A stretch of DNA of 44,983 nt, from IMG/VR virus record IMGVR_UViG_3300028920_000117, positions 1 through 44,983 of that record; one strand, written 5' to 3'. The notes beneath the pieces are model-generated. The model saw nothing but the letters and a program-made list of their open reading frames with translations, did not search any database and was not told where the DNA came from. The stretch comes from a virus. Below are positions 19,515-44,088 of the stretch, piece by piece (within the stretch, counting starts at the first letter, position 1; each line of letters starts with the position of its first letter). The translations under genes were made by a program, and so were the position numbers.

Positions 19515-19624
19515 GCCGCATAAAGAAAAATTTGCGGTGGATAAAAAATTCTTCCGTAAATGGCCGCCAATAAATGGCTTACGTCGTTCAGCCGCTTGGA
19601 AAAAACAAAAAAATGCTAAAGGGC

Positions 19625-19652
19625 TTGATTGGCGTGGCCGATGGGCTATACT
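19625..19652 (+). promoter_or_regulatory. Candidate promoter for plus early operon
   Basis: TTGATT (19625-19630), 16-bp spacer, TATACT (19647-19652). It would start near 19659, only about 14 bases before the nuclease ATG, so the leader would hold little more than the ribosome site AAAGGGG. A reasonable but unproven match; it is divergent from the minus operon promoter. Confidence 0.4.
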
Positions 19653-19672
19653 TGGCCGAAAGGGGTAATCAC

Positions 19673-20572
19673 ATGAATCCGATCGTATCACTCGGTCAGG
19701 GCGACTACGCCCGCGACATCAAGGCGGAAGATATTCTTGGCAGCAAGAAAGACTGCGCCGAGCGCTACCCGTTCCTCATCCGCGAGCCGGAGGAAGTCTA
19801 CCACGCGATGCGGGGAAGCCATCTCACCGCTCACGCCCTGGCTGAATTTCGGCACTGCCCGGCTCAGTACCGAGCGTATGAGGTCGGTCTAGAGCCGCGA
19901 CCGGTGAGCGCGGCATACCTCATCGGCCGCGCGATCCACACGCTGTGGCTTGAGGGTCGAGAGGCGTATCAGGCCGCGTACCAGATCGGCGGCGAACCGC
20001 GGAACAAGCAGACCGGAAAGGTGATGTCGCCGACCAGCAGGGTTTATAAGCAATGGGTAGAATCACTTGACAAGCCGCTCATCAGAGAGAGTCAGTCTTA
20101 CACGATTGAGATGGTGTATGCCTCGCTGTGCGTTCACCCTGTGACAAGAGAACTCTTCAGGGACGGAGTCGCCGAGGGCGTGGTGCGAACGGACATGTTC
20201 GGGCACGCGTGCCAGTCTCGGATTGATTTCATCGGTCGGTACGACGGTCTCGATATCGTCGTCGATTTGAAGACCGCGGACTCGCTCGACGGCTTCGAGT
20301 CAGCGGCGATTGAGTTTGAGTATATCCATCAGTTGGCGTTCTACCGCAAGATGATTATAAACGCAGACGGCCCCGATTCTGCATATTATATTGTTGCAGT
20401 TGAAAAGAAATTTCCCTATCGCGTGGGGGTGTGGAATGTTCCGCATTATACGCTTGACATGGCCGAATGGGATAACACGCTTGCGCTGAAAGAGTTGCAT
20501 GAGTGTCGTGAATCGGGAGTGTGGCCGACAAGATACGAGCAGCCAGGGGTGCTTAAGTTTCCGGAATCGTGA
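19673..20572 (+). CDS. Exonuclease VIII-like PDDEXK nuclease (DUF3799)
   Basis: 299 residues from ATG 19673, with AAAGGGG upstream; a longer frame to 19574 lacks a ribosome site. Signature motifs are all present: LIGRAIHTLWLEG (catalytic-core His), SRIDFI (Asp), VVDLKTADSL (Asp, Lys) and QLAFYR. Such phage nucleases degrade one strand from DNA ends to feed a single-strand annealing protein; the Sak4-like ATPase downstream is the likely partner. First gene of the replication and recombination operon. A second divergent nuclease of this type lies at 42326-43186. Confidence 0.85.
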   Translation: MNPIVSLGQGDYARDIKAEDILGSKKDCAERYPFLIREPEEVYHAMRGSHLTAHALAEFRHCPAQYRAYEVGLEPRPVSAAYLIGRAIHTLWLEGREAYQAAYQIGGEPRNKQTGKVMSPTSRVYKQWVESLDKPLIRESQSYTIEMVYASLCVHPVTRELFRDGVAEGVVRTDMFGHACQSRIDFIGRYDGLDIVVDLKTADSLDGFESAAIEFEYIHQLAFYRKMIINADGPDSAYYIVAVEKKFPYRVGVWNVPHYTLDMAEWDNTLALKELHECRESGVWPTRYEQPGVLKFPES

Positions 20573-20994: not shown

Positions 20995-21177
20995 GTGTCC
21001 GGGTGGGCCGCCGGAGAAGTTGCGGTGGCGTTCCTGCAAAAATGCGGTCTTGTAAATCTTAGCGGAGACGACATTGCTCTCAAAAAAGGGGAAATTGCAG
21101 TTAGGGGAATTAAAGAGTATTTGATACTGCAAGAAAATGGATTCTTGCAGAACGAAAAGGGGAAACAAAATGACTAA
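20995..21177 (+). CDS. Small protein or 3' half of a frameshifted gene
   Basis: 60 residues counted from GTG 20995, but no ribosome site precedes it and the frame is open and protein-like back to 20941 (DSNRSIPEWQV before the GTG). Ends KGKQND, overlapping the ATPase start at 21170. Gly/Ala-rich helix (GWAAGEVAVAFLQKCGLV) and a charged tail. Read together with 20814-20966 it probably forms one gene. Confidence 0.4.
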   Translation: MSGWAAGEVAVAFLQKCGLVNLSGDDIALKKGEIAVRGIKEYLILQENGFLQNEKGKQND

Positions 21178-22051
21178 TCTAATCGAAACAATCTCCGAAA
21201 CACTGCGCGCCGCGCCGCAACGAATCGTGGTCTACGGGCCGCACGGCATCGGAAAGAGTTCGTTCGCCGCGAGCGCGGAGCGGGTGGTCTTCATTCAGAC
21301 CGAGGACGGGCTCGCGAACATCGACGCGAAGGCATTCCCGATTGCAACCGAGTATGAGCACGTCATCCAGTTCCTGGATAGTCTCCTGAGCGGCGAGCAC
21401 GAATTCATGACGCTCGCGGTCGACAGTTTGGACTGGCTCGAGCGTCTGATCTTCGATCGTGTGTGTCAAGATAAGAATGTGAAGTCTATTGAAGACATCG
21501 GGTACGCTAAAGGCTATCACTTTGCGCTCTTATATTGGCGCGAGTTTGTTTCCAAACTGAACCTTCTCCGCTCCGAACGCGGTATGCAAATCATTCTGAT
21601 TGCGCACGCTCAGATCGAAAAGTTCCAGGACCCGACCGCAGACAGTTACGGTCGGTATTCGCCCGGACTTCACAAGTACGCGTCGGCTCTGATTCAGGAA
21701 TGGGCCGACGAGGTTTTGTTTGCAAACTACCGCGTCCACACTAAGATGGTGGATGAGGGCTTCAACCGCAAGCGGGCGCAGGGCATCGGCACCGGGGAGC
21801 GTGTTCTCAAGACCACCGAGCGCCCCTCACACGTCGCCAAAAATCGCCTGGGCCTTCCTGACGAGTTGCCGCTGAACTTCGGGGCATTCGCTCGGTATCG
21901 GGACTCGATCAGTTCTCGTGAGCCCAGCAATAAGGACGGGGCAGAGTCGCCGTATGTTGAGCCGGGGCGCGGGAAGCGGATTCACACGCCCCGAAATGAT
22001 CCGGACAAGCCGACATCTCCAATCGTGGACATGACGGAGCGGGCGCCATAG
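21170..22051 (+). CDS. Sak4-like RecA-family recombination ATPase
   Basis: 293 residues, ATG 21170 after AAAAGGGGAAAC. Walker A GPHGIGKS at 23-30, Walker B strand MTLAVDS with Asp85, and a sensor strand IILIAHAQIEKF. This AAA_24-type, RecA-like pattern is found in Sak4 single-strand annealing proteins of phages. It would work with the Exo VIII-like nuclease upstream and the DUF669 and RusA proteins downstream. Residues after 235 are polar and probably disordered. Segment B uses a RecT-type protein for the same role. Confidence 0.8.
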   Translation: MTNLIETISETLRAAPQRIVVYGPHGIGKSSFAASAERVVFIQTEDGLANIDAKAFPIATEYEHVIQFLDSLLSGEHEFMTLAVDSLDWLERLIFDRVCQDKNVKSIEDIGYAKGYHFALLYWREFVSKLNLLRSERGMQIILIAHAQIEKFQDPTADSYGRYSPGLHKYASALIQEWADEVLFANYRVHTKMVDEGFNRKRAQGIGTGERVLKTTERPSHVAKNRLGLPDELPLNFGAFARYRDSISSREPSNKDGAESPYVEPGRGKRIHTPRNDPDKPTSPIVDMTERAP

Positions 22052-22061: not shown

Positions 22062-22454
22062 ATGAAAAACTGGACACACGCTGAGTGGATCAAGGGCGCA
22101 GCACTGGAGAATGAAATCTACTGGAGAGAGGCGGACGGGCGATATCATCGAGTCAGCGCAAAAGACAAAACGAAATATGGTCTGCGCGGAAGGTCATTTG
22201 GCACCATTATCGTGCATGGAACCGAAGATGGAGACTCCATCCGTGATGGCTGGGGACCAGGCGATGCGATCCGCGAGGGGGTAGGTATGGGTAGTGCCTA
22301 TCGCTGGGGATCTGGGGACGGGATGGCTTTTCGCATCGACGGGGGGCACGGAGATGCTAGGCGTCTCGGACTGGGCCATGGTTACGCGTGCAGGTTTGCC
22401 GGACGTGGGCGGGCAATTTCCAGCGGCTGTTGTGGGCGGGCAATATATGGATAA
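22062..22454 (+). CDS. Glycine-decapeptide repeat protein, family member 3
   Basis: 130 residues, GGGAGGCGAAC before the ATG. Head: WTHAEWIKGAALENEIYWRE...YGLRGRSFGTIIVHG. Repeat units: DGWGPGDAIR, EGVGMGSAYR, WGSGDGMAFR, LGLGHGYACR, ending RAIYG. It is nearly identical to the broken copy at 39957-40355, with 148 identical bases (22240-22387 against 40030-40177, inverted). After its stop, the motif AGCAATCGAAT recurs behind two other family copies. It interrupts the recombination operon between the ATPase and the DUF669 gene. Confidence 0.75.
   Translation: MKNWTHAEWIKGAALENEIYWREADGRYHRVSAKDKTKYGLRGRSFGTIIVHGTEDGDSIRDGWGPGDAIREGVGMGSAYRWGSGDGMAFRIDGGHGDARRLGLGHGYACRFAGRGRAISSGCCGRAIYG
22240..22387 (+). 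repeat. 148-bp exact inverted repeat, copy 1
   Basis: Identical to the reverse complement of 40030-40177, bounded by single mismatches at 22239 and 22388. It encodes the decapeptide part of the repeat-family genes. The flanks remain closely similar over the whole gene, so the exact block reflects recent exchange or duplication, and is also a place where assemblies can be joined wrongly. Confidence 0.9.
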
Positions 22455-22470: not shown

Positions 22471-22552
22471 GAACGCGCGAACGCATTCGCCGTGATGGGG
22501 GGGGGGTGGTGGAGTCATCTGAATGGGCAGCATCTGAAAAAGGAGGTCGAAC
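22471..22552 (+). repeat. Gene-junction remnant with poly-G run
   Basis: Bases 22471-22496 match the 3' end of the gene at 38154-38402 (coding ERIRRDGG...VI). A run of ten G (22497-22506) follows, then TCATCTGAATGGGCAG, matching the stop and next gene start there. Nine G would restore the reading frame into the ancestral stop. A near-identical remnant lies before the family copy at 40355. It appears to be a scar of gene insertion. Confidence 0.65.
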
Positions 22553-22948
22553 ATGAAAAACTGGACACACGAGGAATGGATCAAGGGCGCAAAACTGGAG
22601 GACGGAATCTACTGGAGAGAGGCGGACGGGCAATATCACCGCGTAAGGGCTAAGTGGATGACCAATTACGGCCTGCGCGGCCCAAATGCTGGGACCATTG
22701 ATGTCTACGGAACCGGCGGTGGATACGCAATCCGCGATGGTGATGGACTTGGAAATGCTATTCGCAAGGGTTCCGGCGAAGGCGGCGCCATTCGCCTAGG
22801 ATCCGGCGAAGGGATGGCATGTCGCATCGGCTGCGGCTATGGGCACGCCAGACGTGGCGGATCGGGCGATGGAGACGCATGCCGGTTTGGCGGACATGGA
22901 CGCTCCTCTCGCACCGGCAGCGGATACGGCCGGGCAATATATGGATGA
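22553..22948 (+). CDS. Glycine-decapeptide repeat protein, family member 4
   Basis: 131 residues, AAAAAGGAGGTCGAAC before the ATG. Head: WTHEEWIKGAKLEDGIYWRE...YGLRGPNAGTIDVYG. The clearest repeat of the family, in register: DGLGNAIRKG, SGEGGAIRLG, SGEGMACRIG, CGYGHARRGG, SGDGDACRFG, then SGYGRAIYG. Its 5' flank is nearly identical to that of the broken copy at 40355, while that copy's body is closer to member 3, so copies have recombined. Function unknown. Confidence 0.75.
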   Translation: MKNWTHEEWIKGAKLEDGIYWREADGQYHRVRAKWMTNYGLRGPNAGTIDVYGTGGGYAIRDGDGLGNAIRKGSGEGGAIRLGSGEGMACRIGCGYGHARRGGSGDGDACRFGGHGRSSRTGSGYGRAIYG

Positions 22949-22972
22949 GCAATCGAATGAGGGGAAAAAGGA

Positions 22973-27879: not shown

Positions 27880-29955
27880 TTGTCCAGTCCGGCTTCTAAT
27901 CCGCTTTACGAGAGCGCGTTAGCGTACTCCAAATGCGGGCTCAGTGTTATACCCGCCGAGCGTTCGGGCAATACGAAAAGGCCGACCGTTTCTTGGAAGC
28001 CGTACACAAAGCGCGGGGCGCAAGATGGGGAACTGGAAGAGTGGTTCGGGCCGGCCCAGTCGATGGCCCTTGTGTGCGGTTCTGTTTCCGGAAATCTTGA
28101 ATTGCTCGACTTTGATCTTGAGGGGGAGGCATTTCAGACATGGTCTGGGGCAGTCCAATCAATCGCCCCGGGCCTTTTTGAGTCTTTGGTCATTGAAAAA
28201 TCTCCAAGCGGAGGAATTCATGTCATATACCGATGTGAAGATCCCATACCCGGAAACCGCAAACTTGCACGATTTTGGTTCTCAGCAGAGCATGAAAAGG
28301 CAGAAATTGCTGTAGGCAACAGGACCTACCAGGTTCGGCACGATCCCCGCATGGGCGGCCCCGGCGCGTGGGTCACCGCAATCGAGACCCGCGGCGAGGG
28401 GGGGCTGTTCCTGTGCTACCCGAGCCCGGGATATCAGTTGACCCAGGGCGCCATCTACCGGCCGCCGGTGCTCACGCCGGACCAGCGGGCCGTTTTGGTG
28501 CGGTGCGCGGCGGCGCTCAACCAGGAGCCGGCTAGGGTGTCCGACGATCCTTCGCAGTCTGAACGCGAGGGCCGACCCGGCGACGACTACAACCGCAGGG
28601 CGGGCGTCCGCGGCCTCCTGGAGCGGCACGGGTGGCGCCTGGTCGCGTGTCGGGACCAGGAGTACTGGTGCCGCCCGCGCAAGGCCGGCGGGGTCAGCGC
28701 GACGTGGAACGGCGAGCACCTGTACGTGTTCACGAGCAACGCGCCGCCGCTCGAGCCGGACACCGCGTACCGCCCGTTCGCCCTCTACGCCGCCCTCGAG
28801 CACCAAGGCGACTACGCGGCCGCGGCGTCCGCCCTCGGGCGAGACGGGTACGGCGAGCCGCCACAGAGGCCCGTCCCGAGCGACGTCGAGGAAGCGCCGC
28901 CGACCAGGTTTGAGATCCTCAGCGCCGGCGACCTGATCAGGCAGTACCCCCGGCTCCGCCCCCCGATCGTTCACGGCCTGCTTCGTGAGGGAGAGACATG
29001 CAACATCATCGCGGCCCCCAAAATGGGGAAAAGTTGGCTCACCCTTTCACTTGCGCTTTCGGTGTCGTCCGGACGAGATTGGATGAATCGGTATAAATGT
29101 GAGCCCGGGTCTGTTTTGGTCATAGACAATGAATTGCACCGAGAGACCATCGCGCATAGAATCCCGCGCGTGGCGGACGCAATGGGCGTAGCCCCCCGAG
29201 AGTATGAGGGCCTAGTCGATTATGCACCGCTGAGAGGCAATTTGCAGGACATCGTGGGGCTTTCTCGTCTCTTTGATTTGATCGAGCACGGGGCGTACAA
29301 GATGGTCGTACTTGACGCTTGGTACCGATTCTTGCCCGACGGCAAGGATGAAAACAGTAATGCCGATATCGCCGGCCTGTTCAACCGAATAGACCAATAC
29401 GCCGACCAAATCGGGTGCGCGTTTTGCTGTGTGCACCATAGCAGCAAGGGGAGCCAGTCGCTAAAATCTATTACCGACGTTGGCGCGGGCGCCGGCGCAC
29501 AGAGCCGGGCGGTAGACTGCCATATCGCACTCCGTCCGCACGAGGAACCCGGAGTTGTCGTGTTTGCCGCGGCGGCCCGGTCGTGGCCCCCGCCGGAGCC
29601 GGTGTGCTTGCGGTGGGAGTGGCCGATATTTACCCCGGACGAATCACTCGATCCCTCAGAACTTGACGGGATCAGGAGAGGTGGAAACGGGGTGTTTGGT
29701 CAACATAAGAAAGAAAGTAAGAAAGAGTGGACATCTGACGAATTTGTATCTGAATTTATTACAGATGATCCACGGAGTGTAGAGGAACTATGGGGGCGCG
29801 CAAGGCTCAAATTTAAGGGCGACGCGCCCGGAGAAAGGACGGTTCGGGCTCTTGTGAAAGAGGCGACAGACCGAGGATTGATTGTTCAAGTTCGTAAAAT
29901 GGAAGGAAAAAGCGGGGCAGCCAGAGGGTACATAAAGGCGCCTTTGGGGCACTAA
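27880..29955 (+). CDS. Prim-pol primase fused to RepA-like helicase
   Basis: 691 residues from a TTG start set by GAGAGGG six bases upstream. N-terminal prim-pol domain: LLDFDLEG with Asp77 and Asp79, then GGIHVIYR with His114. Middle AAA_25/RepA-like domain: Walker A AAPKMGKS (378-385), Walker B VVLDAW (Asp479), sensor CCVHHSS (519-520). A small winged-helix-like C-terminus follows (RSVEELWGRARLKFKG). It probably initiates phage DNA replication, priming and unwinding. Bases about 28330-28980 are sharply GC-richer than the rest, suggesting an internal exchange. Confidence 0.85.
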   Translation: MSSPASNPLYESALAYSKCGLSVIPAERSGNTKRPTVSWKPYTKRGAQDGELEEWFGPAQSMALVCGSVSGNLELLDFDLEGEAFQTWSGAVQSIAPGLFESLVIEKSPSGGIHVIYRCEDPIPGNRKLARFWFSAEHEKAEIAVGNRTYQVRHDPRMGGPGAWVTAIETRGEGGLFLCYPSPGYQLTQGAIYRPPVLTPDQRAVLVRCAAALNQEPARVSDDPSQSEREGRPGDDYNRRAGVRGLLERHGWRLVACRDQEYWCRPRKAGGVSATWNGEHLYVFTSNAPPLEPDTAYRPFALYAALEHQGDYAAAASALGRDGYGEPPQRPVPSDVEEAPPTRFEILSAGDLIRQYPRLRPPIVHGLLREGETCNIIAAPKMGKSWLTLSLALSVSSGRDWMNRYKCEPGSVLVIDNELHRETIAHRIPRVADAMGVAPREYEGLVDYAPLRGNLQDIVGLSRLFDLIEHGAYKMVVLDAWYRFLPDGKDENSNADIAGLFNRIDQYADQIGCAFCCVHHSSKGSQSLKSITDVGAGAGAQSRAVDCHIALRPHEEPGVVVFAAAARSWPPPEPVCLRWEWPIFTPDESLDPSELDGIRRGGNGVFGQHKKESKKEWTSDEFVSEFITDDPRSVEELWGRARLKFKGDAPGERTVRALVKEATDRGLIVQVRKMEGKSGAARGYIKAPLGH

Positions 29956-29993
29956 CAAATGGGTAGCAAAACAAAAGAAAATAGCCTAATTCA

Positions 29994-30147
29994 ATTTCGG
30001 CGCGCAATTCCGGCGCGCCGAAATAGGCGCCGGAATTGGGGCGATTGCCGGGTTATGGTAGGTGGATTCAATTCCGGCGCACACACCGCCCCGCCCCGTA
30101 GGGGCGGGGTGTGCGCCGGAATTGAATCCCGCCCTACCCCCGGCAAT
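29994..30147. repeat. Palindrome cluster, candidate replication origin or REPIN-like element
   Basis: CAATTCCGGCGC occurs at 30005-30016 and 30069-30080, and its inverse at 30027-30038 and 30113-30124. Two competing hairpins (29994-30004 with 30014-30024; 30005-30016 with 30027-30038) precede a long one: 20 bp (30064-30083 with 30110-30129), a five-base bulge, 9 bp (30089-30097 with 30101-30109) and a GTA loop, extended by GGTAGG/CCTACC and ATTGCCGGG/CCCGGCAAT out to 30044-30147. It lies in the 233-bp non-coding gap after the primase gene. Confidence 0.85.
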
Positions 30148-30188
30148 TTCGACTGCGCCGAGATTGCCGAAAATTTGGAGATACATTT

Positions 30189-30428
30189 ATGACTTACCGT
30201 GAGGCAGTTTGGGTGGCGACGTCGCCGGAGTTCAAGCCGAACTGCCAACGCATCGAAGCGCTACGGGAACTCGCGCGGCACGCCGCCCGGCTCGAGTCCA
30301 TTGCCGCTAAAATCGCCACTCTCCCGCTCGAACCGTGCGGGCGATGCTTGATACCGCTCGACGAAATCGCAGACGAGGCGGCAAATGTAATAGTGAATTT
30401 GATCAGCGAATCAAACGAGGAATTATAA
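30189..30428 (+). CDS. Small helical protein, unknown
   Basis: 79 residues, TTTGGAGATACATTT before the ATG. Mostly helical, with CGRC in the middle (LEPCGRCLIPLDEIADEAAN). No TM segment. It follows the palindrome cluster, so it may be expressed from the same transcript as the primase or from a promoter in that gap. No function assigned. Confidence 0.55.
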   Translation: MTYREAVWVATSPEFKPNCQRIEALRELARHAARLESIAAKIATLPLEPCGRCLIPLDEIADEAANVIVNLISESNEEL

Positions 30429-34856: not shown

Positions 34857-35366
34857 ATGGCAATTGTCACACTTCATATCCACCCGAACGGGATCATCAG
34901 GCCGTTTGAGCCGCCCGCAACGTACGACATCGACACCTGGGGATCGGGTCCAAACGAGAAGCCGGTCATCAATACGGCATTCTCTATCTCTGGCATCTAC
35001 GACGCGTATCTGTTTTTCGAGCACTTGCGGGACGTGCTCGTGAAAATGGAAAGGAACAACTACGACCTTGCTAGCCCATCGCACCTTGCGCACTCATTCA
35101 CGTTTCAGACCGACGACGGCACATTCCATATCAGGCCCGATCTGTATATCGATCAGTCGATGCCGGCAACTTGGGACATGGCCACCGGCACGACCGACGG
35201 GCCCGAGAACAAGCCGGTCATCTCCAGCGAGACGATTATCCCGTCCAGTTACGATGCCGAGTGGTTCGTGAATCAGGGCAGGGTTGCAATTCGCAAGATC
35301 GAAGGAATCAACGCGCAGCCCCAATCGCCCGGGCTCATTGGTCACAGGTTCACGTTTCAGACCTAG
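34857..35366 (+). CDS. Tail protein with duplicated 84-residue module
   Basis: 169 residues. Residues 1-85 and 86-169 are two copies of one module: HPNGIIRPFEPPATYDIDTW / RPDLYIDQSMPATWDMATG, NEKPVINT / ENKPVISS, YDAYLFFEHLRDVLVKME / YDAEWFVNQGRVAIRKIE, and both end H-(S/R)-FTFQT. The position after the spike suggests a spike-associated or capping protein. Its last 127 bases equal the window start, so two different downstream contexts exist for this gene. Confidence 0.8.
   Translation: MAIVTLHIHPNGIIRPFEPPATYDIDTWGSGPNEKPVINTAFSISGIYDAYLFFEHLRDVLVKMERNNYDLASPSHLAHSFTFQTDDGTFHIRPDLYIDQSMPATWDMATGTTDGPENKPVISSETIIPSSYDAEWFVNQGRVAIRKIEGINAQPQSPGLIGHRFTFQT
35240..35366. repeat. 127-bp exact direct repeat, copy 2
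   Basis: Identical to 1-127 and ending at the same TAG. Downstream here is a tail-tip gene; downstream of copy 1 is a lipoprotein gene. This is the junction between the segments called A and B in the summary. Confidence 0.95.
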
Positions 35367-35386
35367 GCACGAATTGGGGTCAACAA

Positions 35387-35746
35387 ATGGACCAGCGGCA
35401 TGAATACACGGTGAGGGTCGAGACGGCCGGACCGGCCTGCGCCATGCATACGCAAGCGGCAGAGGCCGGCACCGGCATGATTGACACCGCCGACGTGGAC
35501 CGTGTCTCGATCGAGTGGCATCCGATCGGCGCGGCCACGTCTGCCGAACTCGAGGTCCGCAAGAGCTACGGCAACGTGCGCGGAGAGAGCCAAGCGTTCA
35601 GCACGGCCGCCACGTTCACCAACGGGGCAAGGCGGAGGCTGGAACTGGACGTCCAGGATTGTCCGATGCTGGAGGTCATCATCACCACAGCCGGTGGTGC
35701 GGGTGCCATGGGCATCCTTCACGTGTACGGCTACAGTACTGTCTGA
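35387..35746 (+). CDS. Small tail-tip protein, homologue of 13259-13582
   Basis: 119 residues from ATG 35387, preceded by TTGGGGTCAACAA; longer frames upstream run through the previous gene in another frame. Beta-rich: HEYTVRVETAGPACAMHTQA, VDRVSIEWHPIGAAT, SAELEVRKSYGN, AFSTAATF, MLEVIITTAGGAGAMG. Order of elements and the neighbouring beta-helix gene match 13259-13582. Probably a tail-tip structural protein. Confidence 0.7.
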   Translation: MDQRHEYTVRVETAGPACAMHTQAAEAGTGMIDTADVDRVSIEWHPIGAATSAELEVRKSYGNVRGESQAFSTAATFTNGARRRLELDVQDCPMLEVIITTAGGAGAMGILHVYGYSTV

Positions 35747-35776
35747 CAGCGGCCGCGAAGGCCGGGAGCATCCAAA

Positions 35777-36568
35777 ATGGCAACGCGCACCCTGATTGAC
35801 GGATCGACAGACCTGACCCAGGCCAGCAGCTGGAGCGGGGCAACCATTCCGATCACCGGAGATGATGTCGTCATCCCTCGTGGCCGGCAGCACATCGACA
35901 CCTTTAGCCTGGCCGGCGTGCGACTTGAATCGCTTGAGATCGCGTTCAACGGCCGCATCGAAACCACGTCCGGTGCCGCCCTGGCGGTTGACGTGGACAA
36001 CAGCACAGACTCAATTGCCAAGATCAGCGGGACCGGCGCCACCCTGAGGCTGAGCGGTGGAACCACAAACGGCAAGTGGGAGAACACCCTGATCAACAGC
36101 CCCGGCTCATTGGTGGCGTTCACCAATGGGGAGTTCGAGGACATGACGGTGGAGTCCGGTACGGTCATCCTTGACTCGAGCGCGACATTCGACAACATGA
36201 ACATCCTCGGCGGCAGTGTCACCCTGGCCGATGTCGCTTCGGCGGCCGGAACATGCAACCACCGAGCGGGCACTCTCCACATCCACCGCCCGGGCGAATA
36301 CAACGTGTACGGCGGTAGCGTCGTCCTGGACGTGACCGTTGCCGGCACCACGACCATCAACCTGTACGGGGGCAGCTTGACGCACGTCAACGGCGACTTC
36401 GGCGGAGAGATCCACGGCATGTACATGGACGCGCTCGAGCAGGCCGCGACCATCGACACGGTGATCATCTCCAGCCTGGCGCGGATCAGGAGCACGAACC
36501 GGGTGACCTGGTCCAACGTCACCGAGCAGGGGATGACCGTGGCACTGCCACTGATCGGCAGCATATGA
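35777..36568 (+). CDS. Beta-helix-like tail protein, homologue of 13586-14413
   Basis: 263 residues. Starts MATRTLIDGSTDLTQASSWS and continues as short strands with Gly turns at regular spacing (GGTTNGKWENTLINSPGSLV, FTNGEFEDMTVESGTVILDS, SATFDNMNILGGSVTLADVA, LYGGSLTHVNGDFGGEI), the look of a parallel beta-helix. The A-segment counterpart has the same start and repeat spacing but differs in most residues. GC-rich compared with it. The stop overlaps the next start by four bases. Confidence 0.7.
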   Translation: MATRTLIDGSTDLTQASSWSGATIPITGDDVVIPRGRQHIDTFSLAGVRLESLEIAFNGRIETTSGAALAVDVDNSTDSIAKISGTGATLRLSGGTTNGKWENTLINSPGSLVAFTNGEFEDMTVESGTVILDSSATFDNMNILGGSVTLADVASAAGTCNHRAGTLHIHRPGEYNVYGGSVVLDVTVAGTTTINLYGGSLTHVNGDFGGEIHGMYMDALEQAATIDTVIISSLARIRSTNRVTWSNVTEQGMTVALPLIGSI

Positions 36569-37521
36569 CACGCCTGGCCACTTGCGAGGGCGGTACGCGT
36601 CTGGTGCGGTGCGGGAACCGGGTGCAGGTGTGCACAGATCAACGCCCCACCACATGCGACGGTTCCATAACCACCTATCGGTGTCCGTGCATCAGCGATA
36701 CATACGATCATGATATGCCCGAGTGCAATGTTGTCGTCGACAGAGTGATTCCTTGGCGAGCGCAAGTAATCGAGTGGGAGTGGGAATGGGAGTATATAGA
36801 AGAACGGGTGAGATCCTATGGCACCTCCGAATTGGTGCGCCGCAGCCATATAGGTGGTATTGCCGGCTATGCTTTTGCGTGGGGCCGGTACCCCACGATT
36901 CAAGAAATTCGCGACAACTACGGGATCGCCGAGGGGGAGTGGGGAGATGAAACATTCGTAATATACCCGCCTTATCAGTTCGGCGAATACACAACCGGAA
37001 CCTTTTTTGCGCAAAGAGTAATCGAAGAAGAAAACGGCGCCCTTGGGTTTCAATTTTACCCGAATAGATACGGCAGCATTGAACTATCCTGGCTTCCTTA
37101 TCACTATTACAAAATAAACGTGAGCATGTCGGGCCCTGTTTTAGGTCCCCGTACACTCGACTGCTTCGATGCCGCATTTGAACATTATGCCTATTTTATA
37201 GAAGCAAAAAGAACTTTCACGACCGAAGTATCTGGCGATGAGCGTGTTTTCAAGCAAACAACGGAGTTCTTTAGACGCGACACAAATATATCCACGCCGG
37301 ATACGGATAATAGTACTATAATAGAAAATGAAGTCACCACCGTTAGAATACTGCATGAATTTCCACACCTGATGGATACGTGGACTGGTCCGCAAGACTG
37401 GACTCCGTGCGAGCCGGTTCCTGAGGGTCCAGCCCAGCCCGCGAGCACCGATCCGAACGCCGAGGCGATCGCCAGGCAGCAGCAGCTCGACCCTCAGAAC
37501 CGGCCGGGCTGCTGCGGGTAG
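36565..37521 (+). CDS. Cys-containing tail-tip protein, relative of 14928-16643
   Basis: 318 residues; ATG overlaps the previous stop. A Cys-rich N-terminal module (TCEGGTRLVRCGNRVQVC, CDGSITTYRCPC) precedes an AT-richer middle (residues 60-270, aromatic: EWEWEYIEE, YPPYQFGEY, SWLPYHYYKI). The C-terminus (PASTDPNAEAIARQQQLDPQ, then GCCG) parallels the end of the 571-residue protein at 14928, and both follow a beta-helix gene. Here the three Cys modules are missing. Ends one base from a convergent minus-strand gene, without room for a terminator. Confidence 0.6.
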   Translation: MTRLATCEGGTRLVRCGNRVQVCTDQRPTTCDGSITTYRCPCISDTYDHDMPECNVVVDRVIPWRAQVIEWEWEWEYIEERVRSYGTSELVRRSHIGGIAGYAFAWGRYPTIQEIRDNYGIAEGEWGDETFVIYPPYQFGEYTTGTFFAQRVIEEENGALGFQFYPNRYGSIELSWLPYHYYKINVSMSGPVLGPRTLDCFDAAFEHYAYFIEAKRTFTTEVSGDERVFKQTTEFFRRDTNISTPDTDNSTIIENEVTTVRILHEFPHLMDTWTGPQDWTPCEPVPEGPAQPASTDPNAEAIARQQQLDPQNRPGCCG

Positions 37522-37522
37522 G

Positions 37523-37915
37523 TCACGCCCCTCCTTGATGGACCCGATCCCACTGGGAGAGTCGCCCGATCAGATGCTCTCGGGCGATCTCGGCCCGCTT
37601 CAGGAGCTCGCGGAGTTCAGACTCTTCCCGCTCGCGGAGCTGCCAGCCAGTCTCGGCAAAGCGGAGCGTCTCCCGTATCTGGTCGGGGTGCGCTGGGCTG
37701 TTGGGATCAAGCCACTCGAAACTGTGCCCGCCGCTCTCGAGGTCCTCGAGCGTGCACCGCACGGCCCGGGCTGCTTCGCGGATGTCCCGGTCGGGTTGGA
37801 ATCCGTCCGGGGGGCTGGTCGAGCCCCACCCAAACCACTCTGCGCCCGCGTCTCCCAGAGCGAGGTAGAGGTCGTGTAGCGCGTCCCGTAGTGCATCCAC
37901 CGCTGGAGCGATCAT
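37523..37915 (-). CDS. Small acidic helical protein, unknown
   Basis: 130 residues; AAGGGGG before the ATG, which shares one base with the preceding stop (TGATG). Strongly helical and acidic (DALRDALHDLYLALGDAGAEW, REREESELRELLKRAEIARE). No TM segment or known motif. It is the last gene of the segment B minus-strand operon and converges with the tail gene at 36565. Confidence 0.6.
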   Translation of the reverse strand: MIAPAVDALRDALHDLYLALGDAGAEWFGWGSTSPPDGFQPDRDIREAARAVRCTLEDLESGGHSFEWLDPNSPAHPDQIRETLRFAETGWQLREREESELRELLKRAEIAREHLIGRLSQWDRVHQGGA

Positions 37916-38154
37916 CAGGAACCCCCTTCCTGCGCAGACATGCTGCGCGCGTCAACGTATGCCTCCAAGTCCTTCAGGTGACGGAAGTGTGAACCAGTGG
38001 GTTGAAGGGTGTCTGGGTCAATCAGGAAGTACCACGGTTCTCTCACGCTGGAGAGCGTGAAGACATCGCAGAGCCTCCGCTCTACCCATGGATACCCGCG
38101 GTGTGTTCCTTCTCGAATGTTTTTTCCTTGGCCAGTCATTAGATACCGTCCCAT
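37915..38154 (-). CDS. Small protein, unknown
   Basis: 79 residues. Pattern WVERRLCDVFTLSSVREPWYF, then IDPDTLQPTGSHFRHLKDLEAYV. Start overlaps the previous stop as TGATG and has GGTGGGG upstream. Its first codons (MGRYLM) recur in degenerate form in the remnants at 22520 and 40375, in front of repeat-family genes. No function assigned. Confidence 0.6.
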   Translation of the reverse strand: MGRYLMTGQGKNIREGTHRGYPWVERRLCDVFTLSSVREPWYFLIDPDTLQPTGSHFRHLKDLEAYVDARSMSAQEGGS

Positions 38155-38402
38155 CAGATGACCCCACCATCACGGCGAATGCGTTCGCGCGTTCGAGCCT
38201 TGGCCGATCTCTCGATGCCACCGATTATTCCCATGAGGTGCATTCCCTTTGATTGGACCCATGGATCTTTTGCACCAATTAGAGTCTTCGCGCGTCGCTT
38301 GATCTCCCTGATCGCATACTGGTAGTCTTCCACGGTCATCTCGTCATTCCGGACCATCCTGCGGTGTGGAATGCGCTTGGTGCGAGTGTTCGCCTTTCCC
38401 AT
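38154..38402 (-). CDS. Small basic protein, unknown; source of junction remnants
   Basis: 82 residues; ATG 38402 with GGAGG six bases upstream, preferred over an upstream ATG at 38438 that overlaps the previous gene. Very basic ends (KANTRTKRIPHRRMVR and ARTRERIRRDGGVI) flank a helical middle (DYQYAIREIKRRAKTLIG). The last eight or so codons are repeated at 22471 and 40386, where they stand alone. A nucleic-acid-binding role is plausible but unproven. Confidence 0.6.
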   Translation of the reverse strand: MGKANTRTKRIPHRRMVRNDEMTVEDYQYAIREIKRRAKTLIGAKDPWVQSKGMHLMGIIGGIERSAKARTRERIRRDGGVI

Positions 38403-38403
38403 T

Positions 38404-38958
38404 TCACGCCTCCAGGTCGATCTTGGTGCCATTCGCATTTGCTGCAGTATTGCCGTACGCCTTAGTCGCGTGCGCCGCGAACGCCTGCGTGTATGCGGTG
38501 ATGTCGTTACCGTCCTCGTCCACGATGGTCACGGCAGCGCAGAATCTCGCAAGTAGTTCGCACGCAGGCGCGATCAGGTCGCGGACCATCGCTGCCTTGA
38601 CATCGTCAGCGTGCAACTTCGTGTATGCCGCCTGAAGAATTGAGAGACGATCGCCGACCTCGGTTGCAAGGCCCTGAAAGTCGGGGCCTTCAGGTGTCAT
38701 CAGGTCGAGCGCACCGTATCGGTGGTGGCGTAGCTCTAGGTCCTCGACCTGCCGCATCGCGGCCTCGTAGATCGCGTCGCCGAGCCGCTTGGCTACGCCG
38801 CACCTCTCGGCGTTGCTGCCGTAGCTCGAGTATCCGATGCGGCCGTCGGCGGTCGTGAACAGCAGCACGGCGCGATCAACGTTTGCTTTAAGTTGCTCGC
38901 CAATGCTTCGGGCGGCGTCGCGCACGATCTTGATCTCCGGTCTCTGTTTCCATGTCAT
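38404..38958 (-). CDS. Phage protein of unknown function
   Basis: 184 residues; ATG shares a base with the preceding TAA. Middle part has a strand region (DRAVLLFTTADGRIGYSSYG) followed by helices (ERCGVAKRLGDAIYEAAMRQ, MVRDLIAPACELLARFCAAV). No TM segment or catalytic motif recognised. Translationally linked to both neighbours. Role in the early operon unknown. Confidence 0.6.
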   Translation of the reverse strand: MTWKQRPEIKIVRDAARSIGEQLKANVDRAVLLFTTADGRIGYSSYGSNAERCGVAKRLGDAIYEAAMRQVEDLELRHHRYGALDLMTPEGPDFQGLATEVGDRLSILQAAYTKLHADDVKAAMVRDLIAPACELLARFCAAVTIVDEDGNDITAYTQAFAAHATKAYGNTAANANGTKIDLEA

Positions 38959-39320
38959 TATTTGATTCCTTCCGTTTTCTTCAAAACATAGGCAGAATCG
39001 GCAACTGCAAGCCCACGCTCAAAGCTTTCGAGCTCACTCCGTGTATACATGACCAGTTCCCGAAACTCGTCTCTGGTTTTGAGAAGCGCCTCTTGGTGGT
39101 CAGTCGTCAAATTACTGTGCGTGGACGGATAATAGACGTAGCCCGGTACGCGCTCGCCAGAAACGGCGCCGTCTGGATCTACCATCTCGCACCACTCAAC
39201 ATCGTATGTACGCTTGTCGGCATGCTGTCTGATAATCACGGCAGCGCGCAGCTTGCCGGAGTAGTCGAGTCTGGTGCCGTACAGGATATCGCCAGGTTTC
39301 AGATTCATTGATTCGCTCAC
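38958..39320 (-). CDS. Small SH3-like protein, unknown
   Basis: 120 residues from GTG 39320, preceded by a full-length ribosome site AGGAGGTGA seven bases upstream, which decides the start. The sequence begins with strands as in small SH3-like domains (NLKPGDILYGTRLDYSGKLR, AAVIIRQHADKRTYDVEW) and ends in a helix (EALLKTRDEFRELVMYTRSE). The fold is inferred; no function assigned. Confidence 0.6.
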   Translation of the reverse strand: MSESMNLKPGDILYGTRLDYSGKLRAAVIIRQHADKRTYDVEWCEMVDPDGAVSGERVPGYVYYPSTHSNLTTDHQEALLKTRDEFRELVMYTRSELESFERGLAVADSAYVLKKTEGIK

Positions 39321-39331
39321 AGAATCACCTC

Positions 39332-39460
39332 CTATCTGACTCTGAACGGGTCAATCCGCACGATGGTCGGGCCACGACGACGACGAGGCGGCGCCGCGAT
39401 CGCCCAGAGAATCACGAGCATAATGCCGCTCAGGGCAAGCCCTGTCGCAAGGATCATCAT
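39332..39460 (-). CDS. Small single-TM protein
   Basis: 42 residues; ATG 39460 overlaps the stop of the nuclease upstream (ATGA) and follows GAGGGTGGG. Residues 1-23 form one hydrophobic segment (MMILATGLALSGIMLVILWA), followed by a basic tail (PPRRRRGP). Too short for family assignment. The overlap and ribosome site support it as a real membrane microprotein. Confidence 0.6.
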   Translation of the reverse strand: MMILATGLALSGIMLVILWAIAAPPRRRRGPTIVRIDPFRVR

Positions 39461-39879
39461 TCACCCACCCTCTGAATGTTGTGGTACAGCATTGCCATCG
39501 CCTTCTGCTGTGCCTGCGGTGTGCTTGCTGTCACGACGTAGGGATCGCGAGAGAGGCAACATGCAATCTTGAACGAGATCAGCCAGACGTTACGGCGTTC
39601 CTTGTGGATCAGGATGGGGGTGTGGCCAACCGGACAATCTCGGTATGCCTGCTCGATCGCCATGCAAAACAGCCGATTTCCGATCTGCAATGACTCGTTG
39701 TTCTTCACCTCGACGTGGAATCGTGACCAGACCGGGTGGTCTACGGCACACTCGACATCGCCCACGACGCCGGCCGAACGGTGCTGTTGGGTGCGGCGCC
39801 ACGGTACGCCTGTCAGTTCTTCCATCAGATTGGCGGCGAACCGCTCGCCAACCTTTCCCTTGCGGCTCGAGTTGACCAT
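39457..39879 (-). CDS. Hjc-like PDDEXK nuclease, probable junction resolvase
   Basis: 140 residues; ATG 39879 with GAGG upstream, rather than the longer frame through the repeat gene. Core motifs: KGKVGERFAANLMEEL (Glu of helix 1), VVGDVECAV (Asp), then HVEVKNNES (Glu-x-Lys). This is the arrangement of archaeal-type Holliday junction resolvases and related restriction-like nucleases found in phages. It would serve in segment B the role that RusA serves in segment A. C-terminal half helical and less conserved. Confidence 0.7.
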   Translation of the reverse strand: MVNSSRKGKVGERFAANLMEELTGVPWRRTQQHRSAGVVGDVECAVDHPVWSRFHVEVKNNESLQIGNRLFCMAIEQAYRDCPVGHTPILIHKERRNVWLISFKIACCLSRDPYVVTASTPQAQQKAMAMLYHNIQRVGE

Positions 39880-39956
39880 CTGTACCTCGCTTCGCTGGAA
39901 AAGCCCGGGACGCAACACGAGGGACGCCCCGGACCTGTTCAAGTTCATTCGATTGC

Positions 39957-40355
39957 TCACCCGTACATTGTCTGGCCGCAACCATTGCCCGTACGATATG
40001 CTTGCCCGCGTCCCCCACCAAACCTGCATGCGTAACCATGGCCCAGTCCGAGACGCCTAGCATCTCCGTGCCCCCCGTCGATGCGAAAAGCCATCCCGTC
40101 CCCAGATCCCCAGCGATAGGCACTACCCATACCTACCCCCTCGCGGATCGCATCGCCTGGTCCCCAGCCATCACGGAAGGAGTCTCCGTCTTCGGCCCCG
40201 TGTACGACAATGGTCCCAAATGCCTTTCAGCGCAGACCATATTTCGTTTTGTCTTTGGCGCTGACTCGATGATATCGCCCGTCCGCCTCTCTCCAGTAGA
40301 TTCCATTCTCCAGTGTTGCGCCTTTGAGCCATTCCTCGTGTGTCCAGTTTTTCAT
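39957..40355 (-). pseudogene. Glycine-decapeptide repeat gene, family member 6, with premature stop
   Basis: Starts at ATG 40355 with AAAAAGGAGGTCAAAC upstream and reads MKNWTHEEWLKGATLENGIYWRE split over the family head. At 40227-40229 a TGA replaces the GGA found in member 3, right after YGLR. The frame then stays open for a further 90 codons of intact repeats (EGVGMGSAYR, WGSGDGMAFR, LGLGHGYACR) to a TGA at 39957. A recent nonsense mutation is the simplest explanation; TGA is an ordinary stop elsewhere here. A truncated head of 43 residues could still be made. Confidence 0.8.
40030..40177 (-). repeat. 148-bp exact inverted repeat, copy 2
   Basis: Reverse complement of 22240-22387 without mismatch. 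It lies downstream of the premature stop, so the untranslated part of this broken gene is the best conserved, which points to very recent divergence or gene conversion. Confidence 0.9.
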
Positions 40356-40441
40356 GTTTGACCTCCTTTTTCAGATACTGCCCATTCAGATGTCGCCACC
40401 CTCGCGGCGAATGCGCTCGAGTGTGGGAGGGGAGTCACTTC
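40356..40441 (-). repeat. Gene-junction remnant before repeat-family copy
   Basis: On the minus strand, 40421-40386 encodes LERIRREGGDI followed by TGA, the end of the 38154-38402 protein, and is followed by ATGGGCAG as at its neighbour's start. No full gene is present. The same arrangement stands before member 4 at 22553, so both copies arrived with this scar. Confidence 0.65.
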
Positions 40442-40726
40442 CTACTCGATGTCTGCGGCGCGAACAGACGCGAAGGTCTGAACGCGAAAGCGTCGGTATA
40501 CGCGGACGATCCGGTAGTCGCCCTGATCAAGGCGACCCTCTCCCACTTCCTGCTCGATCAACGCTCGGATCGCGGAGTGCGCCTCGCCATCGCTCGGGAC
40601 GATCTTGGATTCACGCCACGGCTCCGTATCGTCCTTTCGGTACTCCACCAGAACCGGGGGGAGTTTCCAGGACTTGCGGGTCTTGGGCTGCTCGGTCTGC
40701 TCGGTCTGTTTGTCTTTCGTTGCCAT
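40442..40726 (-). CDS. Small protein, unknown
   Basis: 94 residues, AAAGGAATTCC before the ATG. A Lys/Gln/Glu-rich disordered start (KDKQTEQTEQPKTRK) leads to a strand-helix-strand core (KLPPVLVEYRKDD, GEAHSAIRALIEQEVGEGR, DYRIVRVYRRFRV). First gene behind the minus-strand promoter at 40760-40788. No function assigned. Confidence 0.6.
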   Translation of the reverse strand: MATKDKQTEQTEQPKTRKSWKLPPVLVEYRKDDTEPWRESKIVPSDGEAHSAIRALIEQEVGEGRLDQGDYRIVRVYRRFRVQTFASVRAADIE

Positions 40727-40759
40727 GGAATTCCTTTCTGCTGGTCAGTTGTCCGTGTG

Positions 40760-40788
40760 AGTATAGGCTCGAATCACTGCAAAGGCAA
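40760..40788 (-). promoter_or_regulatory. Sigma70-like promoter for 40726-37523 genes
   Basis: Minus-strand TTGCCT (40788-40783), 17-bp spacer, TATACT (40765-40760). Four and five of six consensus bases. Transcription would start near 40753, about 27 bases before the 94-residue gene, and could read through the repeat pseudogene and resolvase to 37523. Confidence 0.5.
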
Positions 40789-41415
40789 ATGCATTGGACG
40801 AATTTCTTTTGGCATCTCGGCTTTTTTCTCGCGAATCGAAAAAATCATGGCCGCGGCAGTTTTTGCGCGCCAGTTCGTTGGCCTCTGGCCGGGCGGTCGG
40901 GTCGAGCGAGCAGGAGGGCTCGCCCGCCCGCCCGGTCGTAACAACCTGCACTCTGAGGCTTGTTATCGACGCTGCGCGTCGACGCTTCGCGGCTACTTCT
41001 GCTCCGCTGCTTCGCAGGCTCCGCAGGGGGCCACCCATGCTCCGAGGGAGTTGGTTGGGAGAACGACCCCTGCCGCAATCACGCCCGCAGCGTAACCGTG
41101 CAGGTGGCCGTTCCATGCCCCTCGGTCGCAGGCCGATCGAACGCCCGTGGTGTTTGGGCCCGGCATCCACGGGTTGCACCCTGCCGGCCGGCGCTGGCGT
41201 CACGCACGCCAGTCCCCGCCAGTTCGTCGACACCTGCGGGATTTTCTCACCGATTCCGGCCAACTACGCCCACCGGAAGGGCGGACGCGATGCCCGCAAG
41301 CCTTGTCGTCGCGTCACGACCGCCAAATTGGAAACGGGCCGGGGCGATGTTGTCGCCGCCGAACCGCTCAGAGAGGAGAAATGCAAAAAACCCAGTCGCC
41401 AGGCTCTGGCGAGGG

Positions 41416-41444
41416 TTGACTCCTGGTGTTGTGTGCTGTATTCT
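41416..41444 (+). promoter_or_regulatory. Sigma70-like promoter for short RNA
   Basis: TTGACT (41416-41421), 17-bp spacer, TATTCT (41439-41444). It points against the surrounding minus-strand genes and lies about 30 bases before a perfect intrinsic terminator, so its product would be a very short RNA. Confidence 0.55.
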
Positions 41445-41450
41445 TCATGA

Positions 41451-41511
41451 GTCCGCTGCATCCGGACACTGGCCGCCCCGCGAGTCGTCGCCGCGGGGCG
41501 GTTGCTTTTTT
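41451..41511 (+). ncRNA. Candidate small RNA of about 60 nt
   Basis: Bounded by the promoter above and a terminator. Its 5' end can form a hairpin, GTCCG/CGGAC with loop CTGCATC (41451-41467), followed by the terminator stem. No open frame fits inside. It lies antisense to the gap downstream of the RecT-like gene, not to its coding region. It could be a regulatory RNA or a decoy transcript; no known family is recognised. Confidence 0.45.
41473..41511 (+). terminator. Intrinsic terminator
   Basis: Perfect 10-bp GC stem CCGCCCCGCG / CGCGGGGCGG (41473-41482 with 41492-41501), nine-base loop, then TTGCTTTTTT. Plus-strand only, since the other side has no T-run in the right place. Confidence 0.85.
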
Positions 41512-41549
41512 GGACCCCCCCGACGCTCGGGCGTGTTCCTGAGGACACT

Positions 41550-42329
41550 CTAGCCTGCCTCGTGGCCGATGTCAAGCAGCTCGGCATCGAGTGCGTCACC
41601 GGAGTCTGGGCGTTTCTCGCCGGGCATGAGCGCCGGCCTGAACTCGACGATATCGAGCGCGTCGGATTCGTGCTGGAACCCCGCGAGCAAGTCGGCGAAT
41701 GCCTCCCTGAATGCGTACGTCTTGGCCTTGCCCCGGAGCATACGTTTCGGAAACTTGCTCCAGATGCTGCCCTTCTTTTGGGTCAGGCCCGCAGCGACCG
41801 CCTCACGCCACGAGAACGACTCGGTGAAGGATAGTATGCGAAGCGTTTTGTCGCGCAACTCGCGGAATCGGCGAACGGTGCAGGTGCAGCGCATGTCTTC
41901 GCCCTCGCCCTCGTCGGCGATGGTGTGGTCGATGTAGTCTGGCGACCACTGAGCGATGCCGACGATCGCGTCTCCCCACAGCGTAGGGCGACCGTTCACC
42001 ACATACACGCTCTTGATCGTGCTGGCGGGCCCAAGCCCGATTTCAGCCCCGGCCATCAGCGCCACCATGACATCGGCCGGTGAGCACGCCCCGCTAATGT
42101 TGGTGCCGCTATTGTAGATCCGCTCCGCCATGCGGTACAGTTGGTTATGGTCGGTGGGCATCAGCCGGCCACGCTCAAACAGAATGAGCGATTTGTCCGA
42201 CGCCTTCGGATCGGTGCGGTCGTCCGGTTCATGAGCCCGTGGCGCATTCGGATCATCATCCTCCGGGCGGTTGGGCCTGCTGGTACCGAGGATCTGATCG
42301 AGATCCTTGGCTGTGATGTCGTCTTTCAT
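41550..42329 (-). CDS. recT: RecT-like single-strand annealing protein
   Basis: 259 residues, GGAGGATCAGC before the ATG. A polar acidic N-terminus of 55 residues precedes the RecT/Red-beta core: MAERIYNSGTNISGACSPADVMVALMAGAEIGLGP, then SVYVVNGRPTLWGDAIVGIA and KGSIWSKFPKRMLRGKAKTYAFREAFADLLAG, quoted here in parts. These match RecT-type proteins, which anneal and exchange single strands made by a partner exonuclease. That partner is probably the nuclease just upstream, whose stop overlaps this start. Acidic C-terminal tail. Confidence 0.85.
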   Translation of the reverse strand: MKDDITAKDLDQILGTSRPNRPEDDDPNAPRAHEPDDRTDPKASDKSLILFERGRLMPTDHNQLYRMAERIYNSGTNISGACSPADVMVALMAGAEIGLGPASTIKSVYVVNGRPTLWGDAIVGIAQWSPDYIDHTIADEGEGEDMRCTCTVRRFRELRDKTLRILSFTESFSWREAVAAGLTQKKGSIWSKFPKRMLRGKAKTYAFREAFADLLAGFQHESDALDIVEFRPALMPGEKRPDSGDALDAELLDIGHEAG

Positions 42330-43186
42330 GCTGATCCTCCATATGGGCTATTTACGGGACGCAGCAACTTGTCTTGCGACCACCGTGGCAGCCCGAGTGT
42401 CAGGCGATTGTTGTGTGCGATCCCGTTTGCTTCGCTGCGATCCCGGTAGGCCCGGTATCGCGAGGCAGCGATTTCGATCTCTGCCCATCCCTGCTGGATG
42501 TCCTCGACGGGGATGCCGGACAGGGCGGAGTCGTAGGGCGGAGATGTCTCCTGCCACGCAAACAGCCATGCAGGATCGTGTATGCCATAGGCTACCTGCA
42601 TCGCACGCATGTACCAAGCGGCCTGAATGTGATATCCGTACTTCCAGATGGATCGCTCGACATCGGCGATGGTCAGCGTCGCGGTGGTCTTGATATCCAC
42701 TGCGCCGATCCCCTCCCAAAGCCGGTCGATCCGTGCCTTGCACTTCACCCCGCCGAGCAGGGGCTCGTGCCAGATGATCGTGTGTTCCGCGAAGCTGGCA
42801 TCTGTCAGCACCTTCTTACAGAGCGGGTGCGCCGAAAACGACTCGTACATGCGGAGCAGTCGATCCCACTCCTCGGCCACCAGCAGGATCTTCCCGGGCT
42901 CCAGAGCGTCCCGTTCCTCCTGGAATGCTTTTGTGGTGACGGATTTGGTGGCCGTGTGTCTTACGATGTTGTTGAAGTCGCCATCCTCGCACACCTTGTG
43001 GAAAGCGGTTCCGCGATTCATGGCGGCGGTTTCGGCCTGCCCCTCGGTCAGATACCACGCCCCGGCGAGCCCGCTGATCGCGAACTTTTTCAGGGTCGAT
43101 GCGTTGAGCGCGTCGATCAGGACGTAGTCTTCGAAACGCATGGCCCTGATGATCTCTGCGTCCGGGTCAGATTGTGTCGCAGTCAT
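42326..43186 (-). CDS. Exonuclease VIII-like PDDEXK nuclease (DUF3799)
   Basis: 286 residues, AAGGAAATGGGGA before the ATG. Motifs: MNRGTAFHKVCEDG (His), KARIDRLWEG (Asp), AVDIKTTATL (Asp, Lys) and IQAAWYMRAM. Same family as 19673-20572 but clearly divergent, and paired here with a RecT-type rather than a Sak4-type annealer. The C-terminal 50 residues are basic and variable. The gene overlaps the regulator gene upstream by 20 bases. Confidence 0.85.
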   Translation of the reverse strand: MTATQSDPDAEIIRAMRFEDYVLIDALNASTLKKFAISGLAGAWYLTEGQAETAAMNRGTAFHKVCEDGDFNNIVRHTATKSVTTKAFQEERDALEPGKILLVAEEWDRLLRMYESFSAHPLCKKVLTDASFAEHTIIWHEPLLGGVKCKARIDRLWEGIGAVDIKTTATLTIADVERSIWKYGYHIQAAWYMRAMQVAYGIHDPAWLFAWQETSPPYDSALSGIPVEDIQQGWAEIEIAASRYRAYRDRSEANGIAHNNRLTLGLPRWSQDKLLRPVNSPYGGSA

Positions 43187-43637
43187 TCCCCATTTCCTTG
43201 ATGTAGTCGCGGAGCGCAGGGATCAGCTCGCGGAGAGTCGCTGCCTGCGCCTTCATTGTGATTCCGTTTCCGATCCGGTACACGCGGTCCTCGGGCTGAC
43301 CGATCGCTTTGGCGATCTCGGCGTATGACATCGGCCTGTTGCGGACACGGTGGATCAAGGTCCGGGCCTCGTCGGTCGCTGCGTACCCAATCATGGATGC
43401 CCTGAAGGCATCTTCCGAATCTGCCATCGCCCGCTCGCTCGGCGTCATGCCGTCCTTGCTCGCCGCCCGCTGGTCGCGCTTGGTCGCGTTCTCCTGGTCG
43501 GCCGCCGCGATCGCCTTGAGGTTGGCGTCGACGCTCGCCTTGGCATTTGCGAGGGCCCGCTTGGTCTTGGCCTCTGCCTTAGCCCGGTCCGCGACGGAAG
43601 ACATCCGGCGGGTCTTCCTGTTGGTCTTCTTCTTCAT
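43167..43637 (-). CDS. Probable HTH DNA-binding regulator
   Basis: 156 residues, AGGAGTGCCCAG before the ATG. Basic start (KKKTNRKTRRMSSVADRAK), a long helix (ALANAKASVDANLKAIAAAD) like that of the 26816 protein, then a helix-turn-helix-like region near 105-130 (MSYAEIAKAIGQPEDRVYRI). It could regulate the early operon of segment B. No classical repressor protease or oligomerisation domain is seen. Confidence 0.65.
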   Translation of the reverse strand: MKKKTNRKTRRMSSVADRAKAEAKTKRALANAKASVDANLKAIAAADQENATKRDQRAASKDGMTPSERAMADSEDAFRASMIGYAATDEARTLIHRVRNRPMSYAEIAKAIGQPEDRVYRIGNGITMKAQAATLRELIPALRDYIKEMGNDCDTI

Positions 43638-43876: not shown

Positions 43877-43897
43877 GGTGAACCTCCTGATGTTCGG

Positions 43898-43925: not shown

Positions 43926-44088
43926 GGGATGGTCAATAAAATATGGGTGAATGATGCAGAATCACGCAAAACCACACAGTTCGGGTGGGTGAATTGACTC
44001 CCACCCCGTTCTGGTGGAAGTTGTTGCTTGGTTGGGATTTAGGTGGTTCTCAGTGAATCCGGTTTCTGTGTGGGTGGTATGATTGGCT

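Follow-up and report, generated by a model that had tools for sequence, protein, structure and literature searches.

A block of inverted iterons and a long hairpin directly after an AAA_25-type primase-helicase gene is a probable phage replication origin

The DNA analysed here, a virus record from IMG/VR that is 44,983 bases long, is referred to as the window. A gene on its plus strand at 27880-29955 encodes a 691-residue primase-helicase, and its stop codon (29955) is followed directly by a block of short inverted repeats and hairpins. The 12-mer CAATTCCGGCGC occurs in four exact copies within 120 bases, two in each orientation, at positions 30005-30016 (+), 30027-30038 (-), 30069-30080 (+) and 30113-30124 (-), and is found nowhere else in the window; it is the sole 12-mer in the 45 kb that has four copies inside 200 nt. 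The exact copies are accompanied by degenerate iterons, namely CAATTTCGGCGC at 29992-30003 (+) and copies with 2 mismatches at 30015-30026 (-) and 30155-30166 (-), the last of which pairs weakly with 30144-30151. Exact inverted pairs of 12-mers number 14 in the gap region, whereas 2000 order-1 Markov simulations gave no more than 3. Hairpin A (29994-30024) is formed by a perfect 12-bp stem (29994-30005 paired with 30013-30024) and a 7-nt loop, while hairpin B (30005-30038) contains a perfect 12-bp stem (30005-30016 paired with 30027-30038) and a 10-nt loop; as they share bases, the two are mutually exclusive. They are followed by a 104-nt hairpin (30044-30147) that begins 89 nt past the primase stop, carries an exact iteron in its left arm (30069-30080) and another in its right arm (30113-30124), and is capped by the G+C-rich apex CCCCGCCCCGTAGGGGCGGGG. 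Its folding energy is -52.6 kcal/mol (DNA parameters), and its best 100-nt window has a z-score of -10.1. The window contains two inverted repeats of at least 20 nt within 300 nt, the longer of which is the core of this hairpin, and the other overlaps that core. A sequence-only reading of this DNA had described a 12-mer present twice in each orientation within 120 bases, two exclusive hairpins followed by a very long one, and a position directly after the primase gene, all of which hold, although the block is better bounded at 29989-30168. An AT-rich stretch (29956-29995, 30% G+C) reaches from the primase stop to the iterons and is a possible unwinding region, albeit weaker than the A/T runs of related phages; the longest A/T-only run in the block is 7 nt, and a run of about 10 nt or more is absent.

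The upstream protein is presumed to be the initiator that acts at the adjoining block. Its N-terminal part matches a phage polymerase/primase family (phrog, 6.5e-51), and residues 341-525 form a helicase domain that is AAA_25/RepA-like (AAA_25, E=1.4e-30) and not of the SF3 type; the protein also matches hexameric RepA (PDB 1g8y, 7.4e-10). The C-terminal region aligns with an HTH-like region in related primase-helicases. HTH_11 was found in 4 of the 14 aligned C-termini, the window's own C-terminus matches no HTH family, and a single-sequence AlphaFold model of it was unusable (pLDDT 38). A profile search of the PDB with the C-terminal alignment was set aside, as it returned mostly calmodulin, a compositional artefact, together with weak matches to the Lac-repressor HTH.

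To learn what lies at this position in other phages, gene ends that follow related primases were compared. A first IMG/VR scan found no primase relative, and a first group of relatives picked by their terminase contained no primase match; its identity to the relatives that were ultimately tested is low for the window protein, at ~25%. The gap past repA in Streptococcus phage Javan535 is full of GGGACAAACCCGAG, in inverted and direct copies, Paenibacillus phage Vadim carries TTGCGGCAATCAT/ATGGTTGCCGCAA past its primase gene, and Arthrobacter phage RootBeer contains AGTGACA/TGTCACT along with an 84-nt palindrome ~370 nt past the primase stop. We counted inverted 8-mer pairs in a stretch that begins 50 nt ahead of each stop codon and ends 350 nt past it, using as controls the other gene ends in the same loci, with ORFs called by a simple script. 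In the discovery set of 15 named phages the primase ends were enriched (p=0.005) by this statistic, which was fixed after the Javan535, Vadim and RootBeer gaps had been seen, and with only one streptococcal phage kept the difference was not significant (p=0.11). In a fresh validation set of 8 named phages the enrichment was again observed (p=0.001), and among 12 phages with AAA_25-type proteins the best 100-nt fold past the stop had a median z of -6.2, as compared to -2.3 (p=3e-6). The repeat signal is absent at the gene ends of the remoter primases (phi40:1, BUCT618, Ilzat and Jflix2).

A larger test started from an alignment of ten primases, which yielded 80 IMG/VR loci, 60 of them usable once dereplicated; 3 of the 60 are near-copies of discovery phages. 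At these 60 loci the median excess of inverted 8-mer pairs past the primase stop is 16.3, while the 362 other gene ends give 0.1 (p=5e-31), and the best hairpin z is -6.3 versus -1.9 for the same groups (p=1e-30). Beyond the 5% tail of the controls lie 47 of the 60 loci when judged by inverted pairs and 50 of 60 when judged by hairpins. The gap to the next ORF is likewise wider, at 281 nt past the primase and 8 nt at control ends (p=3e-18), and the longest A/T run has a median of 11 nt in the relatives' blocks versus 8 nt at control ends, a feature that is common but not universal. Past the primase, the relatives contain many short inverted and direct repeats and not just one hairpin. Within the window itself, the primase gene end ranks first among the gene ends tested on both measures, with 39 inverted 8-mer pairs (the next has 6) and a hairpin z of -10.1 (the next has -8.0). 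The spelling of the repeats varies among phages, whereas the architecture past related primase-helicase genes is constant. In Streptococcus phages Javan535, 406, 31, 235 and 74, Vadim, Bacillus phage BCJA1c, and the Faecalibacterium phages Lugh and Aster, as in the window, the gene for an AAA_25-type primase-helicase precedes short inverted repeats and a long hairpin, but the repeats of these phages are spelled unlike those of the window. The window differs from its relatives in other respects as well: they usually have an A/T run, whereas the window has none of 10 nt; they often have a separate G+C-topped hairpin past the iterons, whereas the long hairpin of the window has the iterons as its arms; and RusA usually lies downstream of the primase in the relatives but upstream of it in the window.

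Among the streptococcal phages, the spelling of the iterons follows the initiator. The phages Javan535, 406 and 31 have GGGACA repeats in common, and their last ~49 residues are 59-71% identical (29/49 for 535-406, 35/49 for 535-31 and 33/49 for 406-31). Javan235, which has unrelated repeats, is only 29-33% identical to these phages over the last ~49 residues, although the helicase cores are 84-100% alike. In partial Mantel tests over 72 loci, the array correlates with the C-terminus once the core is controlled for (r=0.166, reached in 0 of 999 permutations), and a correlation with the core persists when the C-terminus is controlled for (r=0.155, reached in 2 of 999 permutations). The comparison is therefore suggestive of a C-terminal domain that reads the repeats, and goes no further because the core, too, keeps a partial correlation with the array. 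A broader and tentative proposal, which we consider somewhat more likely to fail than to hold, is that AAA_25-type phages constitute many mutually incompatible replicons, each with its own iteron spelling directly 3' of the initiator gene that co-diversifies with the C-terminal DNA-binding domain of the initiator, such that initiator and origin travel together as a single cassette; the window would then be a divergent example, with an origin hairpin whose arms are made by the iterons themselves.

We conclude, with a probability of roughly three in four, that the block at 29989-30168 is the replication origin of the phage. This reading is the most likely because dozens of phages with related primases hold a similarly built, differently spelled block at the same place, and the relatives' architecture strongly supports the earlier suggestion of an origin that offers the neighbouring initiator both iterons and a site for extrusion. 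In the mechanism that we envisage, the primase-helicase would bind the inverted CAATTCCGGCGC iterons via its C-terminal domain, and binding together with negative supercoiling would make it easier for the alternating short hairpins and the 104-nt hairpin to open or extrude. The RepA-like helicase ring would then load onto the strand that becomes exposed, and the first primers, from which forks would start, would be made by the N-terminal primase domain. Cumulative GC skew, which the sequence-only reading had proposed as a check, does not turn at 30 kb in the window and follows only the gene strand. This absent turn counts against the origin, as do the ~25% identity of the window protein to the tested relatives, the short A/T run, a C-terminus that matches no HTH family, and the remoter primases whose gene ends lack the signal.

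Several known systems bear some likeness to this arrangement. The ori and crr sites of P4 consist of short iterons that are read by the alpha protein, which unites origin binding, helicase and primase in one polypeptide, as proposed for the window protein. The P4 alpha protein that reads ori/crr differs in having a bacterial-type (Toprim) primase (PMC4234260). Plasmid pRN1 of crenarchaea contains a ~100-nt stem-loop in non-coding DNA 54 bp 3' of its prim-pol gene that is needed for replication, though its place in the plasmid can be changed, and phage BIP-1 has a similar stem-loop 3' of its replication gene (PMC4234260). The 104-nt hairpin of the window likewise lies directly 3' of a primase-helicase gene. 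However, pRN1-type proteins combine a prim-pol and a winged helix with an SF3 helicase, in place of which the window protein has a RepA-like AAA_25 domain, and the pRN1 origin lacks iterons, whereas the window has inverted iterons that form hairpin arms (PMC4234260). Given this likeness on the one hand, and the AAA_25 helicase, the iterons and the missing 10-nt A/T run on the other, the window block most likely works, by analogy, like a pRN1-type origin, yet we do not file it in the pRN1 family. Compared by description alone, the origin of Streptococcus thermophilus phage Sfi21, a 302-bp PER element, is likewise short, non-coding and part of a phage replication module (PMC6356513).

A rival explanation, favoured until the block past homologous primases was examined, is a host-derived cluster of GTAG-tagged REP/REPIN elements; the sequence-only reading, too, had considered a REPIN-type element. 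According to this explanation, two head-to-head units (GTAG...GGGCGGG...CCCGCCC) with enlarged loops were brought by a host RAYT transposase, and any effect would be that of an mRNA hairpin. The apex of the long hairpin does hold the 13-mer GTAGGGGCGGGGT (30098-30110, +), which is identical to the core of the GTAG-tagged REP family, and the GTAG tag, GGGCGGG stem and head-to-head arrangement are those of published REPs and REPINs (PMC3733652; TnpA_REP, PMC8266576). GTAG REPs form dimers and may insert within ORFs (PMC3733652). The full pattern is present in 28 of 34 IMG/VR records, which were mostly picked for holding the core, with up to 9 matches in 40 kb and 0 hits for a reversed-pattern control. 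Bacterial genomes contain it as well, namely 22 of 400 from the phylum of L105 (titled Villigracilaceae) and 14 of 343 from the phylum of L100, one of which, in a record titled Sedimentisphaerales, has 256 matches. Against it, the loops of the family are mostly 2-4 nt long as compared to 17 nt in the window, there is a single site in the window with no other within 2 mismatches, and Y1_Tnp (RAYT) is absent from the window, although the host may have a copy. Moreover, the 19-mer ATTCAATTCCGGCGCACAC occurs in none of 84,980 genomes, dispersed copies were not found, and the CAATTCCGGCGC motif is foreign to the GTAG REP family. Iteron-hairpin blocks of unrelated sequence hold the same position in the relatives, often with G+C-rich apices. 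The apex resemblance thus stands, while loop length, copy number and comparative context do not agree with a REPIN-type element; we regard this explanation as unlikely and the match of GTAGGGGCGGGGT to the REP core as probably coincidental.

When ATTCAATTCCGGCGC alone was searched in IMG/VR, 47 matches were obtained, none with an inverted partner, and a paired 10-mer in GTDB genomes retrieved many unrelated hairpins, including Chryseobacterium repeats and terminator-like stems, none of them built like the block. BLAST of the block found nothing among phages and weak matches only among plasmids. Separate repeat families came to light along the way. Chryseobacterium species (L099, L116, L126, L132 and others) contain a recurring intergenic palindrome, AATTCCGGCGCGGGAAGC..GCTTCCCGCGCCGGAATT. 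The 256 matches noted above, of the form GTAGGGGCGGGGT..CCCGCCC, with 0 for the reversed control, lie in genome G634 and constitute a high-copy REP family in the phylum of L100. The IMG/VR contigs L236, L245 and L322-L325 (records G351, G358 and G362), which are 26-40 kb long, have up to 8-9 GTAG-REP matches each, some of them nested inverted dimers at gene junctions, and such a density in phage contigs seems unusual.

An RNA-level switch, in which alternating hairpins of the transcript separate the primase from the genes downstream and serve as attenuator, terminator or 3' stabiliser, is also improbable. Its attraction is that genes on one strand flank the exclusive hairpins A and B and the highly stable 104-nt hairpin. 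However, what comes after the long hairpin (30044-30147) is TTCGACTG, with only TTT and no T-run, so that an intrinsic terminator signature is lacking; the same-strand gene array runs on past it, and the block has no Rfam match. The many short inverted and direct repeats in the relatives, as opposed to one hairpin, are more readily understood as protein-binding sites than as one RNA switch. Of the switchable terminator that had been suggested from the sequence, the two exclusive hairpins exist, but the T-run is missing.

The description of the block as non-coding needs qualification, since a 77-residue ORF (29959-30192, +) is open throughout. It begins 4 nt past the primase stop, and its end overlaps, as ATGA, the start of the next gene (30189-30428, +), which encodes 79 residues and has no function assigned. 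Because the ORF carries no codon signal (log-likelihood -0.04; the next two ORFs, which are similar in size, reach +9.0 and +17.2), we treat the block as non-coding. That 29959-30192 is instead a small protein gene, palindromic by chance or through an in-frame palindromic insert, is very improbable, as the start position, the ATGA overlap and the tight gene packing that favour it are opposed by the codon sums and by the absence of a Pfam match. An in-frame insert with CAATTTCG at 29992 and 30144 as its target-site duplication was rejected because the ORF has no coding signal and CAATTTCG belongs to a degenerate iteron.

Should the origin assignment at 29989-30168 hold, it would bear on many other genomes, as almost no metagenomic phage has an annotated origin. 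One simple rule, that inverted iterons and a strong hairpin be sought in the ~300 nt past an AAA_25-type primase-helicase gene, would locate origins in hundreds of genomes. It would also make the specificity of initiator for iteron, and the resulting competition between phages or prophages, directly testable; the Sfi21 origin as a resistance element is a case to compare.

The contig has further features of interest. Bases 1-127 are repeated exactly (127, not 128) at 35240-35366, which is the signature of a k=127 assembly; it is possible that bases 1-35239 make up an entire circular phage genome and that 35367-44983 extends it with DNA of a related phage or strain. A strong hairpin at 14424-14500 (z -8.0, best 100 nt) lies inside the gene at 14416-14946. 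One gene family has been duplicated and has since diverged, and an inverted copy of it lies towards the right of the contig: 22052-22474 matches 39937-40366 in inverted orientation at 88%, 22508-22960 matches 39945-40400 at 73%, and 22052-22464 matches 22542-22958 at 71%. The 130-residue product of 22062-22454 has no PHROG match. There are also two exonuclease VIII-like genes, at 19574-20572 (+) and 42326-43186 (-), and two annealing proteins, one Sak4-like (21137-22051, +) and one RecT-like (41550-42329, -); the presence of two recombination modules in one contig is in line with a composite contig.
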